DNA of 34,268 nt from assembly GCA_021817065.1 (NCBI GenBank), contig JAKAWH010000025.1:1-34268 (forward strand), in the 5' to 3' direction. Shown here piece by piece: positions 9,198-34,240 of the stretch. The stretch is from Actinomycetes bacterium. Lineage in GTDB: Bacteria > Actinomycetota > Acidimicrobiia > Acidimicrobiales > JAKAVM01. Each line of letters begins with the position of its first letter. The first letter of the stretch is position 1. The notes beneath the pieces were generated by a model. The model was not told the origin of the DNA. It worked only from the letters and a program-made list of their open reading frames with translations, and ran no database searches. The position numbers were made by a program, and so were the translations under genes.

Positions 9198-10985
9198 TCA
9201 GTCCTCCAGCCGCAGCGCGGAGACGAAGGCCTCCTGGGGAACCTCCACCCGCCCGATCGCCTTCATCCTCTTCTTCCCCTCCTTCTGTGCTTCCAGCAGC
9301 TTGCGCTTACGAGTGATGTCGCCCCCATAGCACTTGGCGATCACATCCTTGCGGTAGGCCTTGACCGTCTCTCGAGCGATGATCCGTGACCCGATGGCAG
9401 CCTGGATCGGAACGTCGTAGGCCTGCCGGGGAATCAGCTCGCGCAACTTGGCGGTCATCTTCCGCCCGTAGGACTCGGACTTATCCTTGTGCACGATCGA
9501 GGAAAAGGCGTCCACCGGCATCCCGTTCAGCAAGACGTCCACCCGGACAAGCTGTGAGGGTGCGTATCCCGCCGGTTCGTAGTCCAAGCTGGCGTACCCC
9601 TTGGTGCGTCCCTTCAGCTGGTCGAAGAAGTCGATCACCAATTCGGCCAGCGGAACCCGGTAGACGATCTCGACCCGCTCGGGCGACAGGTACTCCATCC
9701 GCTGCATCTCACCCCGCCTCGACTGGCACAGATCGAGGATCGTCCCGGTGTACTCCGCCGGGGAGATGATCGTGGTGGTGAGATAGGGTTCCTCGACCCG
9801 TTCCAGGTTGTTGGGCGGGGGAAGTGCATTGGGGTTATCCACCCGCTGGGAGGAACCGCTGGTCAGGTAGGCCATGTAGGCGACCGACGGGGCGGTGGCG
9901 ATCAGCTCCAGGTTGAATTCCCGTTCCAGCCGCTCCCGCACGATCTCCATGTGGAGCAGCCCCAGGAAGCCGCACCGGAAGCCAAACCCGAGGGCCGAGG
10001 AGGTCTCCGGCTCGTAGGTGAAGGAAGAGTCGTTCAAGCGAAGCTTCTGGAGCGCCTCCCTCAGGTCCTCGAAGCTGTCCCCGTCGATCGGGTACAGACC
10101 GCAGAAGACCATCGGCTTGGGCTCGAGGTAGCCGGCCAGCGGCTCGCCGGCAGGATGGGAGGCAAGGGTGACCGTCTCACCCGACTTGGCTTCACCCACG
10201 TCGCGAACATTGGCGATGAGGTATCCCACCTCGCCCGGCCCGAGCGAGGGCACCGGAGTGGGATCGGGGGTACGGACCCCCACCTCCTCCACCTCGTGGA
10301 CGATTCCCGCCTGCATGAAACGGACCTTGTCACGGCCAGAGAGAACCCCGGCCATCACCCGGATCGAGCTCACCACTCCCCGGTACTGGTCGTAGTACGA
10401 GTCGAAAATGAGCGCTTGGAGGGGAGCCGCCGAGTCTCCCTCCGGTGCGGGAACCCGGGCAACCACCGCGTCCAGGAGCTCGGGTACCCCGTCTCCGGTC
10501 TTGGCCGAGATGTGGAGGATCTCCCCAGCGGGGATGCCGAGCACCTGCTCGATCTCCGCAGCGCACCGCTCCGGGTCGGCCGCGGGCAGGTCGATCTTGT
10601 TGAGCACCGCCACGATGGCCAGATCGTGCTCCATCGCCAGGTAGCAATTGGCGAGGGTCTGGGCCTGGATACCCTGCGAGGCGTCGACCAGCAGGACCAC
10701 TCCCTCGCAGGCGGCCAAACTGCGGGACACCTCGTAGCCGAAGTCCACGTGGCCGGGGGTGTCGATCAGGTGGAGGGTGGTACCCCGCCAGGTGACCCGC
10801 ACGTTCTGAGCTTTGATGGTGATCCCCCGCTCCCGTTCGATATCCATCGAGTCGAGGTACTGAGCACGCATGGCCCGGGGATCCACCGCCTTGGTCAACT
10901 CCAGGATGCGGTCGGATAAAGTGGACTTGCCGTGGTCCACATGGCTGATGATGGAAAAGTTGCGGATCTGGGTGCCGGGGCGCAT
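9198..10985 (-). CDS. lepA: Elongation factor 4 (LepA)
   Basis: [72 protein letters not shown]-terminal [32 protein letters not shown] are LepA-diagnostic. Confidence 0.97.
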
Positions 10986-10998
10986 TTACACTCACTGT
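10986..10998. promoter_or_regulatory. 13-bp divergent start-to-start gap with opposed -10-like hexamers (lepA / putative lipoprotein)
   Basis: Plus strand TACACT 10987-10992, then 6 nt to ATG 10999. Minus strand TACAGT (10999-10994), then 8 nt to the lepA ATG at 10985. Confidence 0.5.
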
Positions 10999-12009
10999 AT
11001 GGGAATCCGTAGATCGACCCGCGCGGGGGCTCGGCCGGCGAGGTGGGACATGCCCGGCAGATGGACGGGTGGGGCCCTGCTGATCGTCGCGGCGCTCGCC
11101 ACCGCAGGTTGCGGGATCGTCAACGGGATCACCTCCGAGCGCAACTCCACCGATCCCCTGCTCCAGAATTACGGCTTCCCCTCCGCCAAGGTCACCTACT
11201 CCCCCTCCCGGCCGTCCTCTCCTACCGCTGCGATGACGGTGAACGTGGTCGCTTCTCCCCAGACCATGGAATCCACCGGTGGGAACGTTGCATCCATCGA
11301 CCAGCAGTACCTCGAGCTCGCCGGGGAGGTGTGGGATCACTTCGCCTACTCGTTCACTTCCATCGCAGTCACGATCAAGGGATACGGCACCCGCACATAT
11401 CCCTATGCCGACCTCACCCAGTACTTCGGCAGCCGCCCCAAGGGCTTCGGTACGACCAGCCTGGCCAAGGAGGAGTACTCCGCCTGGAGCTACATCTACG
11501 ACGGCGGGTACGCCTTCGGGTCCTTGGTGGTGGTGCTCGTCATCGTGAAGATCTACCGCCGCCAGAAGAGGAAGGTGGCCAAGGTCCCCGTCTCCGAGGG
11601 CAAGTACGGGGGATGGCATCACCAGATGACACATCTCGCCCCCCATCACAACCCGCCGAAGACCTGGACCGCGCCGGTTCCCGAGCCGGCAGCGGTGGTC
11701 AACCCTTCCCCTGCGGGTGCCTCCCCTCCGGCCCCCGGACCGCCACCCGTCCCGGTTGCACCCAGCCAATGGGTCCCTCCCGGCCAACCCGGGCAGGCAC
11801 CTGCCCCCCGGCCGGCCCCGCGACCGGTCGCACCCCAACCTGCGCGTTCCGCCGTTCCTGAACAGGAACCATCGGCCGGGTTCGCCCGGCGACCCTTCGC
11901 CCGGCCCGGCCCCCCGGCCGACGTATCCATGCCGAAGATGCCGACTCTCCCGGCCAAGAGCCCGCCCGCTCCGGCTCCCGCCGAAACCCCGGGGGACGCC
12001 CCCGGCTGA
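10999..12009 (+). CDS. Putative lipoprotein/membrane protein with Pro-rich C-terminal tail
   Basis: N-terminal hydrophobic segment [15 protein letters not shown] (possible lipobox Cys), second TM segment [22 protein letters not shown], then a long Pro/Ala-rich tail. Confidence 0.7.
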
Positions 12010-28654: not shown

Positions 28655-29275
28655 ATGACCGTGTCCCCCCTCGATCGGGATTCCGCCCGGAAAGCTGCCG
28701 AGGCATTGGGGGTGCCCGAAGGGATGACCCGGCTGTCGGTGTTCCAGGTGCTGCTGAGGCACCCCGCGCTGGCCAAACCGTTCAACGACCTGTTGATGTG
28801 CCTGCTTTTTTCCGGCTCGCTAGACGTGCGGCTGCGGGAACTGGTGATCATGCGCATGGGATGGGTGACCGGCTCGGTATACGAGTGGACCCAGCACTGG
28901 GGAATCGCCCAGGTCCTCGGAATCGATCCCGACGATCTACTCGCTGTACGCGACTGGCACTCGGCTCCGGCGTCGCAATTCACCCCCGTCGACCGCGCCG
29001 CTCTCGCCGCGGTCGACGACGTGGCCTCGTGCGGCTACATCTCCCCGACCACCTGGGTCGCCGTCGAGGAGGCGCTGCCAGACCGGGCCGATCAGGTGGA
29101 ACTCGCCATGCTTGTGTCCACCTACGCCGCGGTGTCGGTGTTCCTCCGCAGCCTGGAAGTGCCACTCGAAGAGGGTGTCGAGCCCTGGCCCCCCGACGGG
29201 CTCGACCCGGGGAGGGCGACTCCCCCTGAATCGCCTGCTGCCGCGGTCGCGCCGAACCCCCCCACTGATCTCTAG
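28655..29275 (+). CDS. Carboxymuconolactone decarboxylase (AhpD-like) family protein
   Basis: PALAKPFNDLLMCLLFSGSLDVRLRELVIMRMGWVTGSVYEWTQHWGIAQVLGIDPDDL is CMD-fold-like (E...H pattern). Confidence 0.85.
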   Translation: MTVSPLDRDSARKAAEALGVPEGMTRLSVFQVLLRHPALAKPFNDLLMCLLFSGSLDVRLRELVIMRMGWVTGSVYEWTQHWGIAQVLGIDPDDLLAVRDWHSAPASQFTPVDRAALAAVDDVASCGYISPTTWVAVEEALPDRADQVELAMLVSTYAAVSVFLRSLEVPLEEGVEPWPPDGLDPGRATPPESPAAAVAPNPPTDL

Positions 29276-29480
29276 CTCTGTCGCCGAAATGTGCACACGT
29301 GCCGGAATGCGCGCGATGAGACGCAAATTCGCGCGCTCTGCCCACGAACCGTAGTTAGTTGGGCATATGTAGCGATTAATTCTCGCGATCCTGCCCCTTG
29401 AGACTGCGTTCTACCTAGTGAAGATGCATCCCGTGTCGCACACGTCATCGTGGACGGGATCCGGAAGGGAGGAAGGTGAA

Positions 29481-30233
29481 GTGATCGGAGTGCTGGGCAC
29501 GCGCGGAGAGGAGAGTCGCGTCAGGCGAGGTGGGGAAAAGCAGAACGCAGGGGTGACTACCCCGCGGAGCCGACTTCACCGGGAGAGCAGTTCGGCTGAA
29601 GCGCCGTGTACCAACCCCCGGTGCAGGGAACTGATCACGTCGCTGCAGCAGGCAGCACTCGTCGATCTCCTTACGGGCTGCAGGAACAGGCGCGCGCTCG
29701 ATACGGAGTTCGGTGCCGTCGTGGCGGCGGCAAGAAGGGCATCCGGAGATATCGCGGTGATCGTCGCAGATCTCGACGGATTGAAGGCCACCAACGACGG
29801 CCTCGGCCATCTTTACGGCGATGCGCGGCTGCGGGCTTTTGCATCTGCACTTCGCAACGGCCTACGGGAGTCCGATCTCGTATACAGATTCGGCGGTGAC
29901 GAATTCGTCATCGTCATTCCCTCCACCGATCGCGACGGAGCGATCGAGGTGATGAACCGGATCTCCCTATCCGGGAGCCCTCCCTTCTCGTGGGGCGCGA
30001 CGTCACTGCAGGTGTGCACGGGGTCCCCGAGCGAAGAGGTACCGGGATCGTACGACCCCTTCCACCTCATCGCGGTTGCCGACACCGAGCTTTACGAGGC
30101 CAAGCGGCGGTCGCATGCTTCGAGCTCGATGGGACGGATGCCGGGAAACGGGAGCACCCGTTGGCACGCTGAGGTCATCGGGGCGCCTTCGGGAGGGTGG
30201 GTCGACATAGAACCTCTGCAATGCGTGCAGTGA
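29481..30233 (+). CDS. GGDEF-domain diguanylate cyclase, no recognisable sensor domain
   Basis: LVDLLTGCRNRRALDTEF, IVADLDGLKATNDGLGHLYGD, RESDLVYRFGGDEFVIVIPS (I-site RxxD and intact GGDEF). GTG 29481 preceded by GGGAGGAAGG; an in-frame ATG at 29418 is possible. Confidence 0.9.
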   Translation: MIGVLGTRGEESRVRRGGEKQNAGVTTPRSRLHRESSSAEAPCTNPRCRELITSLQQAALVDLLTGCRNRRALDTEFGAVVAAARRASGDIAVIVADLDGLKATNDGLGHLYGDARLRAFASALRNGLRESDLVYRFGGDEFVIVIPSTDRDGAIEVMNRISLSGSPPFSWGATSLQVCTGSPSEEVPGSYDPFHLIAVADTELYEAKRRSHASSSMGRMPGNGSTRWHAEVIGAPSGGWVDIEPLQCVQ

Positions 30234-31339
30234 GCGACAATGGTTGCCTGGTCGACCTGTCCGAGGACAGGAAGCTCGTCGAGGAGTGCCAGGCCGGAAA
30301 CCTAGCAGCCTTTGACCAATTGTATGCGCGGTATTTCGCGCGCCTCACTCGTTTCTGTCACCGGAGACTGGGGAGCGGATGTGACGCGGAAGACGTAGCG
30401 CAAGAGACGTTCTTCCGTGCCTGGAAGGCGCTGCCCTCCTTCAGCGGGGAGAAGCACTTCTACCCGTGGCTCACCGTCATCGCCGCACACCTGTGCACCG
30501 ACCGCCTTCGATCCTCGGCGCGTTGCGTGCCAGTCAGGGAGCTCGCCGTCGGCGGTCACGACGTTCACAGTGAGCAAGAAGAACGGCTGATGGCCCGTGC
30601 TGAAGGGGCGATGGCACGTGAGGCGCTGCACAGGATTCCTCCTCGACACCGTGAGATCCTCCTCGAGAAGGAGGACAAAGGGTGGACGTGTGAGCAGATC
30701 GCAACGCACCATGACGTGTCCGTTTCGGCGGTGATGACCACTCTCTGGCGGGCCCGCCAAGAACTCCGCAGGGCGTATTCGGATATCGAGGCACGATGCT
30801 GCGTGCTGGGTTCCGCCTTGTTCGTCCTGCGACGTGTCGTGAGAGGCGGCGCGATCAAGACGACCAGCGTGGTCGCGGGCTCAGCGGGAGCCGTCCCACC
30901 CGGTTTTGCTCCGGTAGCTCGTTCCACGCTCGCCGCGGCAGCTTCGATGGCGGCCCTTCCCTCGGGTACCGGCCCGATGGCCATCACGATTCCTTCGATA
31001 TCCCTGAGGCGATCTCCCGTCATGCCACTGGGCGCTCCGGTGGGCGCTATGCACGGTACGGGCACAGTGCCCGGCGGGACTCCGGCGGCGGCGCTCTCGG
31101 TGCCCCTAGTGCCGCGACCAGACCAGGGAACCGGGAATGGCGCCTCTGGTGCACACCAGGAAGCCGCGGTGCGTTGGTCGGGCGATGGCCCCGTGAACAC
31201 GCCGGAGGGTGGCGCGAGCTCCAGCCTGCATCCGGACACGTCCGCAGGTTGGTCAAGATGGGATACCGCGGGCCCACCCGCAATCACCGGTGCTGATCGG
31301 ACACACCCGGGAGGATCCGAAGGGAGACGGCACGGTTGA
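30221..31339 (+). CDS. ECF-type RNA polymerase sigma factor with about 180-aa C-terminal extension
   Basis: AFDQLYARYFARLTRFCHRRLGSGCDAEDVAQETFFRAWKALPSF (sigma2), ALHRIPPRHREILLEKEDKGWTCEQIATHHDVSVSAVMTTLWRARQELRRAY (sigma4), then an Ala/Gly/Pro/Ser-rich tail. Start (ATG 30221 or GTG 30230) overlaps the GGDEF stop. Confidence 0.92.
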   Translation: MRAVSDNGCLVDLSEDRKLVEECQAGNLAAFDQLYARYFARLTRFCHRRLGSGCDAEDVAQETFFRAWKALPSFSGEKHFYPWLTVIAAHLCTDRLRSSARCVPVRELAVGGHDVHSEQEERLMARAEGAMAREALHRIPPRHREILLEKEDKGWTCEQIATHHDVSVSAVMTTLWRARQELRRAYSDIEARCCVLGSALFVLRRVVRGGAIKTTSVVAGSAGAVPPGFAPVARSTLAAAASMAALPSGTGPMAITIPSISLRRSPVMPLGAPVGAMHGTGTVPGGTPAAALSVPLVPRPDQGTGNGASGAHQEAAVRWSGDGPVNTPEGGASSSLHPDTSAGWSRWDTAGPPAITGADRTHPGGSEGRRHG

Positions 31340-31384
31340 ACTCCCACCCCGGCAGTCGGTCCTCATCCAGCAAGGCGCACCCAC

Positions 31385-31402
31385 TCCAGCGAGTACTCTG
31401 GA
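31385..31402. promoter_or_regulatory. Candidate TetR autoregulatory operator over the -10
   Basis: TCCAG-N8-CTGGA inverted repeat containing GAGTACTC and the -10-like TACTCT (31394-31399), 6 nt from ATG 31406. Confidence 0.5.
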
Positions 31403-31405
31403 ACC

Positions 31406-32092
31406 ATGGTCGGGAGGGTGCCAGCTCTTCCGTCGCTGGATGTGTCGGCTGCGACGGTGACGCCCCGCCGACGCAGGCGTGCCTCGAGCGACCACCAGAA
31501 AGAAATGCGGCGAGAACAGATCCTCGCTGCGGCGAAGCGGGTGTTCGCCGCCAACGGCTTCCACGCAACCACCATCGCCGATGTCGCCCGGCAGGCGGGT
31601 GTCTCCTACGGGATCGTCTACTGGTACTTCGACAACAAGGAGGCACTCTTCCGCTCCCTCATGGACGGGGAGGAGCAGGCGCTCCGTACCCACATCGGCC
31701 AGTCCGTCCTCGAGAGGGCACTGCACCCTGGCGATCCCGACCTCACCGTCACCGCCATCAAGCAGGCCCTTCGGGCTACCCTGGGGTTCTTCGAGTCCCG
31801 CCCCGATTCGGCGCGCATCCTCTTCCGCGATTCCCTATCCTTCAGCGATAATTTCGCCCGGCACCTTTTCGACATCTACGAAAGGTTCATCGGGGACATC
31901 GAGGCTGCCCTCGTCGCGGCACAGGAGGGAGGGCAGGTCATCCAGGGCCCAGCCCGGATCATGGCCTACTCGGTCGCGGCTCTCGTCGGGCAAGTCACGC
32001 TGCGGCGCCTGGTCACCGACGATGGCCTCACCACCGATCAGGTTGCCGACTTCCTGGTGGAATTTATCCTGAACGGGATTCTGGCGCGCTGA
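31406..32092 (+). CDS. TetR-family regulator
   Basis: RREQILAAAKRVFAANGFHATTIADVARQAGVSYGIVYWYFDNKEALFRSLM: TetR HTH. Confidence 0.94.
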   Translation: MVGRVPALPSLDVSAATVTPRRRRRASSDHQKEMRREQILAAAKRVFAANGFHATTIADVARQAGVSYGIVYWYFDNKEALFRSLMDGEEQALRTHIGQSVLERALHPGDPDLTVTAIKQALRATLGFFESRPDSARILFRDSLSFSDNFARHLFDIYERFIGDIEAALVAAQEGGQVIQGPARIMAYSVAALVGQVTLRRLVTDDGLTTDQVADFLVEFILNGILAR

Positions 32093-32758: not shown

Positions 32759-34240
32759 ATGTTTGATACTCTTTCTCCCGAGGCGGGGCCGGCAGGCCAT
32801 CCTGCATCCTCGCTCTCCGACGAGGATCTCCATCGGGAGATTCTCACCTTGGCCGGCCACATTGCCGCCGCCAAGTGCGCCTGGCTCGATCTGGTGGCCG
32901 AGATGGACAGAAGGGCGATGTACTACGAGTGGGGATGCAAATCGGCAGCCGACTGGCTGTCGGTGCGATGCGGCATCGGGCTGGGCACTGCTTTCGAATA
33001 CGTGCGGGTGGCCCGGGCCATGTCGGAGTTCCCCCTCATCCACGACGCCTTTGCGACCGGCGAGTTCTCCTATTCCAAGGTGAGGGCAGTGACCCGAGTG
33101 GCAACGCCTGCCAATGAGGAGACCCTGGTCGATTACGCTCGCTACGCAACGGGAGCCCAACTGGAGAAGATCGTGGGCGCCTTTCGGGGAGCCAGGGAGG
33201 CTGCCGATCCCGAACGCGTTGCCCGCCGGTTGGCCAGGCGTTACCTGCGCTTTCACTTCGATGCAGATGGATCTCTGGTGGGATCGTTCCGGCTTCCCCC
33301 CGAGACCGGAGCCACTTTGGTGGCCGCCATCGAAGCGGCACGAGCCGAGCTGGAAGCCGACGAGAGGGGAGGCAGTCCGGTCGAGCCCCAGGGAGAGCCA
33401 GCCGGGACCGGCGAGCCTTCCCCCGCTGGTGACACTGCCGGTCAAGAGTGCCCCGGTGGCTCCTTCGCTGGTGAGTCTTCCGCGGAAGAGTCGGACCCTG
33501 CCGATTCCCCTGCTGGTGACACTGCCCCTGCTGGTGACACTGCCCCTGCTGGTGACACTGCCGGGCAAGAGTGCCCCGGTGGCTCCTTCGGACCGATCGT
33601 CATTGCCGACGACCCCGAGCCTGCCTCCTGGAGGAACGCAGACGAGCCCCACGGTGCCAGAATGGTCGACGCCCTGGTGCATATGGCCGAGACGGCCGTC
33701 TCGAAGATGAGCCAAACCGGCTCGGTGATGCCAGCCCCCTCGATCATCGTCCACGTGGACGGGTCTTCGATCACCATCGACGACGGTCCCCACGTCGGAT
33801 TCGAGACCGCGCTGCGCCTGGCCTGCGATGGATCGGTGGCCACCCAGTGGATGGTCGATGGCCTGCCCGTCGACCTTGGACGCACGAAGAGAGTGGTGTC
33901 GCCCGCCCTGCGGCGCACCCTCCATGCACGCGATGGTGGCTGCGTCTTTCCCGGGTGCCACCGCAAACGCTTCACCCAGGCCCACCACCTCATCCACTGG
34001 GCCGACGGAGGACCCACCGATCTGGACAATCTGGCCACCTTCTGCTCCTGGCACCACCACCTGGTTCACGAGGGAGGTTTCACTGTAAGCCGGTGCGAGG
34101 ACGGCAAGCTCACTTTTTACAATGCCAAAGGCGAGGATATCTGTTGGCGGCACAGCTATCTACACACGCGCCGGCAACATTCCATGACCACGATTCGGCA
34201 GTGGTATTTGCCGACGGGAACCACTCGGTGTAGCCAGTAG
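32759..34240 (+). CDS. DUF222 / HNH endonuclease domain protein (13E12-repeat type)
   Basis: DUF222-like N-terminus (LAGHIAAAKCAWLDLVAEMDRR...GCKSAADWLSVRCGIGLGTAFEYVRVARAM) and C-terminal HNH CVFPGCHRKRFTQAHHLIHWADGGPTDLDNLATFCSWHHHLVH. Confidence 0.93.
   Translation: MFDTLSPEAGPAGHPASSLSDEDLHREILTLAGHIAAAKCAWLDLVAEMDRRAMYYEWGCKSAADWLSVRCGIGLGTAFEYVRVARAMSEFPLIHDAFATGEFSYSKVRAVTRVATPANEETLVDYARYATGAQLEKIVGAFRGAREAADPERVARRLARRYLRFHFDADGSLVGSFRLPPETGATLVAAIEAARAELEADERGGSPVEPQGEPAGTGEPSPAGDTAGQECPGGSFAGESSAEESDPADSPAGDTAPAGDTAPAGDTAGQECPGGSFGPIVIADDPEPASWRNADEPHGARMVDALVHMAETAVSKMSQTGSVMPAPSIIVHVDGSSITIDDGPHVGFETALRLACDGSVATQWMVDGLPVDLGRTKRVVSPALRRTLHARDGGCVFPGCHRKRFTQAHHLIHWADGGPTDLDNLATFCSWHHHLVHEGGFTVSRCEDGKLTFYNAKGEDICWRHSYLHTRRQHSMTTIRQWYLPTGTTRCSQ
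33509..33562 (+). repeat. 18-bp in-frame tandem repeat x3 inside the DUF222-HNH gene
   Basis: CCTGCTGGTGACACTGCC three times exactly, encoding (PAGDTA)3. A further PAGDTAGQECPGGSF copy lies at 33422-33466. Confidence 0.97.

Follow-up and report, generated by a model that had tools for sequence, protein, structure and literature searches.

The locus examined here raises the question of how an ECF-type sigma factor is controlled when a diguanylate cyclase gene, and no anti-sigma gene, lies beside it. The window, a stretch of 34,268 nucleotides from an Actinomycetes bacterium of the order Acidimicrobiales (assembly GCA_021817065.1, contig JAKAWH010000025.1), carries both genes on the forward strand. 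The first, at 29481-30233, encodes a GGDEF protein of 250 aa, running from a GTG start to a TGA stop at 30231-30233, and a purine-rich, Shine-Dalgarno-like stretch, GGAAGGGAGGAAGG, is read directly upstream of its start at 29463-29476. The GGDEF domain (29655-30113, PF00990, E=1.5e-28) is the sole Pfam match in the protein, which ends 36 residues past the domain, without a hydrophobic segment. Motif searches bore out the original prediction of intact catalytic and inhibitory sites: the I-site RESD (RxxD, residues 129-132, 29865-29876) stands five residues before the GGDEF motif (residues 138-142, 29892-29906). In alignment with its subfamily, the protein keeps all 27 of the 27 fully conserved columns, compared with 15 of the 67 variable ones. 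Judged by its sequence, it is a stand-alone diguanylate cyclase that should make c-di-GMP, encoded by one of 15 GGDEF genes in its own genome.

The predicted overlap of the two genes is real. The sigma gene extends to 31339, and both of its proposed starts, ATG 30221 and GTG 30230, are present. The GTG codon, which forms a GTGA overlap (30230-30233) with the GGDEF stop, gives the same N-terminal length as relatives opening with MALRADDVDLVRDR and is therefore preferred. A well-placed Shine-Dalgarno site is absent at both starts, so that translation of the sigma gene is likely coupled to that of the GGDEF gene. By Pfam, the pair is flanked upstream by a gene for a carboxymuconolactone-decarboxylase-family protein and downstream by a TetR regulator gene; hence, as had been claimed, no anti-sigma gene lies beside it. 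Searches of the window yielded no riboswitch, for c-di-GMP or otherwise, and no sigma-70-like promoter in 29100-31600. Further downstream, at 32759-34240, the window encodes a DUF222/HNH protein that contains an AGDTAP-type internal repeat.

The sigma protein (30230-31339, forward strand) comprises region 2 (30320-30523, PF04542, Sigma70_r2, E=6e-19), region 4 (30617-30766, PF08281, Sigma70_r4_2, E=4.8e-8) and a C-terminal extension. Pfam gives regions 2 and 4 and no region 3, as in ECF-type factors, and AlphaFold2 predicts confident helices across the two regions. Alignment with the family showed that 39 of the 45 fully conserved columns are kept, compared with 9 of the 52 variable ones, and that the recognition-helix neighbourhood differs from that of relatives (VMTTLWRAR versus VETLLWRAR). 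Since conserved columns are kept far beyond variable ones in both proteins, both genes remain under constraint. The extension begins with a helical stretch (30767-30850) that continues the last region 4 helix (AlphaFold2 helix 168-210), followed by an Ala/Gly/Pro/Ser-rich tail (30851-31336) that lacks the transmembrane helix of its relatives and is predicted to be disordered as far as the model reaches, which is residue 272. A cis-acting anti-sigma fold in the extension was rejected on this model, in which the helix to residue 210 gives way to disorder. Motif searches found neither the RsiG-type motif E(X)3S(X)2R(X)3Q(X)3D nor the PilZ motif D.SxxG in the GGDEF or the sigma protein, and no c-di-GMP-binding motif was visible in the latter. 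Zinc-finger motifs are missing from both proteins as well (HxxxCxxC and CxxC in the sigma), and neither the sigma nor its paralog on contig C55 of the same genome has a zinc-finger Pfam match. The proposal that the sigma tail is a target of c-di-GMP was thus not upheld, the tail being free of RsiG- and PilZ-type motifs and predicted to be disordered where modelled.

Searching 59 relatives revealed a clear sigma family, which was enlarged by scanning the named genomes plus 397 genomes of the window's order. Among the genomes scanned, the family is confined almost wholly to that order (Acidimicrobiales-type MAGs): no member turned up outside it in 296 sampled genomes of the class, and the members that carry a name come from Acidimicrobiales/Acidimicrobiaceae or Actinomycetes/Actinobacteria MAGs. 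Four distant Verrucomicrobia matches (27-34%) served as the outgroup; these MAG sigmas (L122-L125) also carry the peptide patterns by which the family was found. The window sigma is 34-44% identical to family members (alignment A2) and 53% identical to the C55 paralog over the sigma domain. Past region 4, family members have a helical stretch, one hydrophobic segment and a tail of some 90-330 residues rich in Ser/Thr/Pro/Gly/Ala, probably a transmembrane anchor with an extracytoplasmic tail. With an extension of this kind being the norm in the family, the usual regulator is probably the anchor rather than c-di-GMP binding by the tail.

Many members of the family also occupy a conserved genomic setting, in which, by Pfam identities, an Mce gene and two MlaE genes, often with a sortase gene, are divergent from the sigma gene, which is followed by MlaF. 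The C55 sigma has both the Mce/MlaF-type locus and the transmembrane helix; the window sigma lies away from such a locus and lacks the helix, and so differs from the family on both counts. Sortase genes adjoin anchored sigma genes at L169, L111, L105, L108, L110, L113, L159, L163 and other loci, and a gene for a TIG-domain surface protein does so at L111; these are possible targets. Just upstream of the C55 sigma gene (L036) lies a tandem array of somewhat fewer than 20 copies of the 7-base unit CCTCCCG. A second branch of the family is found near genes that we take, from our own reading of the sequences, to be ruvB and genes of the queA-tgt-yajC-secD type. At four loci of this other branch (L039, L046, L048, L049), the sigma gene is followed by a gene for a secreted protein of 60-80 aa, overlapping or nearly so.

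The closest relatives of the window GGDEF protein have LTGCxNRR-type and SFSWG-type motifs in common. Most consist of a helical-looking N-terminal domain of about 110-130 residues, which in the full-length relatives (L085-L104, L169) has no Pfam match, followed by the GGDEF domain, a transmembrane helix and a tail resembling those of the sigma family. The claim that the cyclase has no sensor domain therefore stands as far as Pfam goes, but comparison with these relatives indicates that it is not sensor-less by origin, having lost their N-terminal helical domain and transmembrane helix.

Phylogenetic analysis relates the two window proteins to anchored paralogs in their own genome (G000). The GGDEF protein groups at 96/79 with the anchored protein encoded on contig C145, to which it is 52% identical, with end branches of 0.96 versus 0.24. 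The sigma lies on a long branch without firm grouping and is nearest by tree path to the C55 paralog, with end branches of 0.85 versus 0.25, an excess divergence similar to that of the GGDEF protein. In a ranking by Hessa-type values, which serve for order of rank only, its tail scored lowest for a transmembrane helix among about 58 tails of the family; the GGDEF protein, unlike its close relatives, has no such helix. When the tail of the C145 GGDEF protein was searched against its own genome, the sole other match was the tail of the C55 sigma, which is 49% identical over about 119 residues (E=2e-7) in an alignment spanning most of both tails. This similarity has z=14.2 compared with a maximum of 5.1 in 287 between-genome comparisons, on a scale that is inflated by repeats such as PPVT. 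Similarity between sigma and GGDEF tails of one genome was found in G000 only and was absent from the other genomes, including those in which the two genes are linked. Tail likeness as a general rule was accordingly dropped, and the sharing is taken as a lead for this genome alone. From its sequences, the window pair is best understood as a rapidly evolving copy of an anchored sigma/cyclase couple that has shed both anchors and retained the catalytic and sigma residues; it may have arisen by co-duplication. A broken third sigma of the family is present on contig C146 of the same genome (about 10972-11280, reverse strand; about 5976-6281 of L054). It resembles the window sigma (WACRQVADHHQISVSAAMTALWRARQALRREY) more closely than that of C55, so other copies of the window side branch appear to have decayed.

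The original prediction suggested conservation of the pair in relatives as a check, and this was borne out in part. Members of the same two families are linked in three further lineages: sigma then GGDEF with a gap of about 50 bases in G003, sigma-MlaF-GGDEF in G098, and sigma and GGDEF, in that order, ahead of MlaE and Mce in G120. In G206, a sister of G098, the sigma and GGDEF genes lie at contig ends, an arrangement that fits the same order, and in PKXA01000056.1 (L111) a GGDEF gene is 4 kb away from the sigma gene. On the other side, no GGDEF gene lies near the sigma gene at about 65 other loci, and the linkage is sporadic. Gene order also varies, with the cyclase first in the window and the sigma first in G003, G098 and G120. 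A GTGA overlap of 4 nt is possible in G120, but a GTG further downstream, after AGGAG, is no less likely to be the start, and the overlap was not counted. With an estimated 2.5 copies of the subfamily per 3 Mb, chance would give about 0.25 linkages within 2.5 kb, compared with three found outside the window (P about 0.002); P is 0.014 at an estimated 5 subfamily copies, and the three linkages may be two events because the G003 and G120 sigmas are sisters. That the two genes are chance neighbours within an ordinary packed operon would suit the abundance of GGDEF genes, since at 15 copies per 3 Mb, the number in the window's own genome, three linkages would be unsurprising (P=0.19). We nevertheless hold this to be decidedly unlikely, as the linked GGDEF proteins all fall in one subfamily with transmembrane helix and tail and do not group with the four other GGDEF proteins of the window's genome in the tree, and as the C55 and C145 proteins share their tails.

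The pair might also be a decaying duplicate whose genes, having lost their anchors, evolve fast towards pseudogenes. The long branches of both genes, their weak coding scores and the broken window-like sigma on C146 all point this way; both frames are open, however, and the fully conserved columns are largely retained (27/27 and 39/45), making decay an unlikely account. The main rival is that the sigma drives its own operon, with c-di-GMP as the output and a cyclase that neither touches nor regulates the sigma. Positive autoregulation is common among ECFs (PMC5826349), the GGDEF gene lies downstream of the sigma gene in all three linked lineages, and the sigma has no c-di-GMP-binding motif. 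In the window, however, the cyclase comes first, and upstream of 63 family sigma genes no shared bipartite ECF promoter stood clearly above shuffled controls; we consider this rival possible, though rather improbable. Functional coupling of the window GGDEF protein and sigma is likely, and we put at about even the chance of the reading we prefer: a co-transcribed, translation-coupled cyclase and ECF-type sigma, descended from an anchored couple, whose anchors were lost and in which the GGDEF protein is the regulatory partner.

On this preferred reading, each member of the ancestral couple would have been anchored to the membrane through a C-terminal helix bearing a Ser/Thr/Pro/Gly/Ala-rich, probably extracytoplasmic tail. 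By analogy with ECF48/52/53 and IutY, the anchored sigma would probably have been kept at the membrane and released by proteolysis, its tail substituting for a separate anti-sigma factor. In the window copy, this control would be gone and the coupled GGDEF protein would be the likeliest regulator. The window sigma should be soluble, because its anchor is lost; coupled translation would supply the two proteins in a fixed ratio, and the GGDEF protein may contact the sigma, set the local c-di-GMP level, or both. Direct contact is plausible by the precedent of RmdB and CdgE with sigma-WhiG. The more far-reaching version is tentative: that a co-translated cyclase replaces the anti-sigma factor and derives from an anchored couple with matching extracytoplasmic sensor tails, giving a hitherto unrecognised link from outside signal through c-di-GMP to sigma in Acidimicrobiales. 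An anchor-less pair whose relatives are anchored with outside tails suggests a little-known wiring of external signals to gene expression. If true, a sigma factor would have evolved in partnership with a c-di-GMP enzyme, the two at first both bound to the membrane through similar outside tails and afterwards released together. Binding of a GGDEF domain to a sigma, as in RmdB/CdgE and sigma-WhiG, would extend to ECF-type factors, which would here be controlled without an anti-sigma factor, and sigma/cyclase control would be tied to an Mce lipid-transport locus in poorly studied environmental actinobacteria. A search of titles and abstracts, with the subscription literature mostly outside its reach, returned no case of an ECF-type sigma encoded together with a GGDEF partner.

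The closest known systems are of two kinds. Among membrane-tethered ECFs, the actinobacterial ECF48, ECF52 and ECF53 (SCO4117 of Streptomyces coelicolor) have a C-terminal extension with a transmembrane helix, a Pro-rich extracytoplasmic region in SCO4117, and proposed release by proteolysis (PMC8999054, PMC5826349). The anchored relatives of the window sigma likewise bear a C-terminal transmembrane helix and an extracytoplasmic-type tail. They differ in their neighbourhood of Mce/MlaE/MlaF, sortase and sometimes GGDEF genes; the extensions of the window sigma and of C55 lack the zinc-finger domain, C55 has no carbohydrate-binding module, and the transmembrane helix is gone from the window sigma. 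IutY of Pseudomonas putida (ECF243) is fused C-terminally to a membrane-bound regulatory part and is activated by Prc/RseP proteolysis (PMC8999054). The anchored relatives resemble it in their C-terminal membrane-bound part, with proteolysis suggested by analogy, and lack its context of iron-starvation cell-surface signalling. For c-di-GMP enzymes acting on a sigma factor, the model is Streptomyces, where RmdB binds sigma-WhiG directly through its GGDEF domain, keeping RsiG away from it, and where sigma-WhiG has a further interaction partner in the cyclase CdgE (PMC13232838); a similar action is proposed here by analogy. Unlike the window sigma, WhiG is not an ECF, an RsiG-type motif or gene is absent at the window locus, and the window GGDEF protein is co-encoded with its sigma. 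Membrane-tethered ECFs and c-di-GMP control of sigma factors are thus kinds already known, and the window pair is a variant of them.
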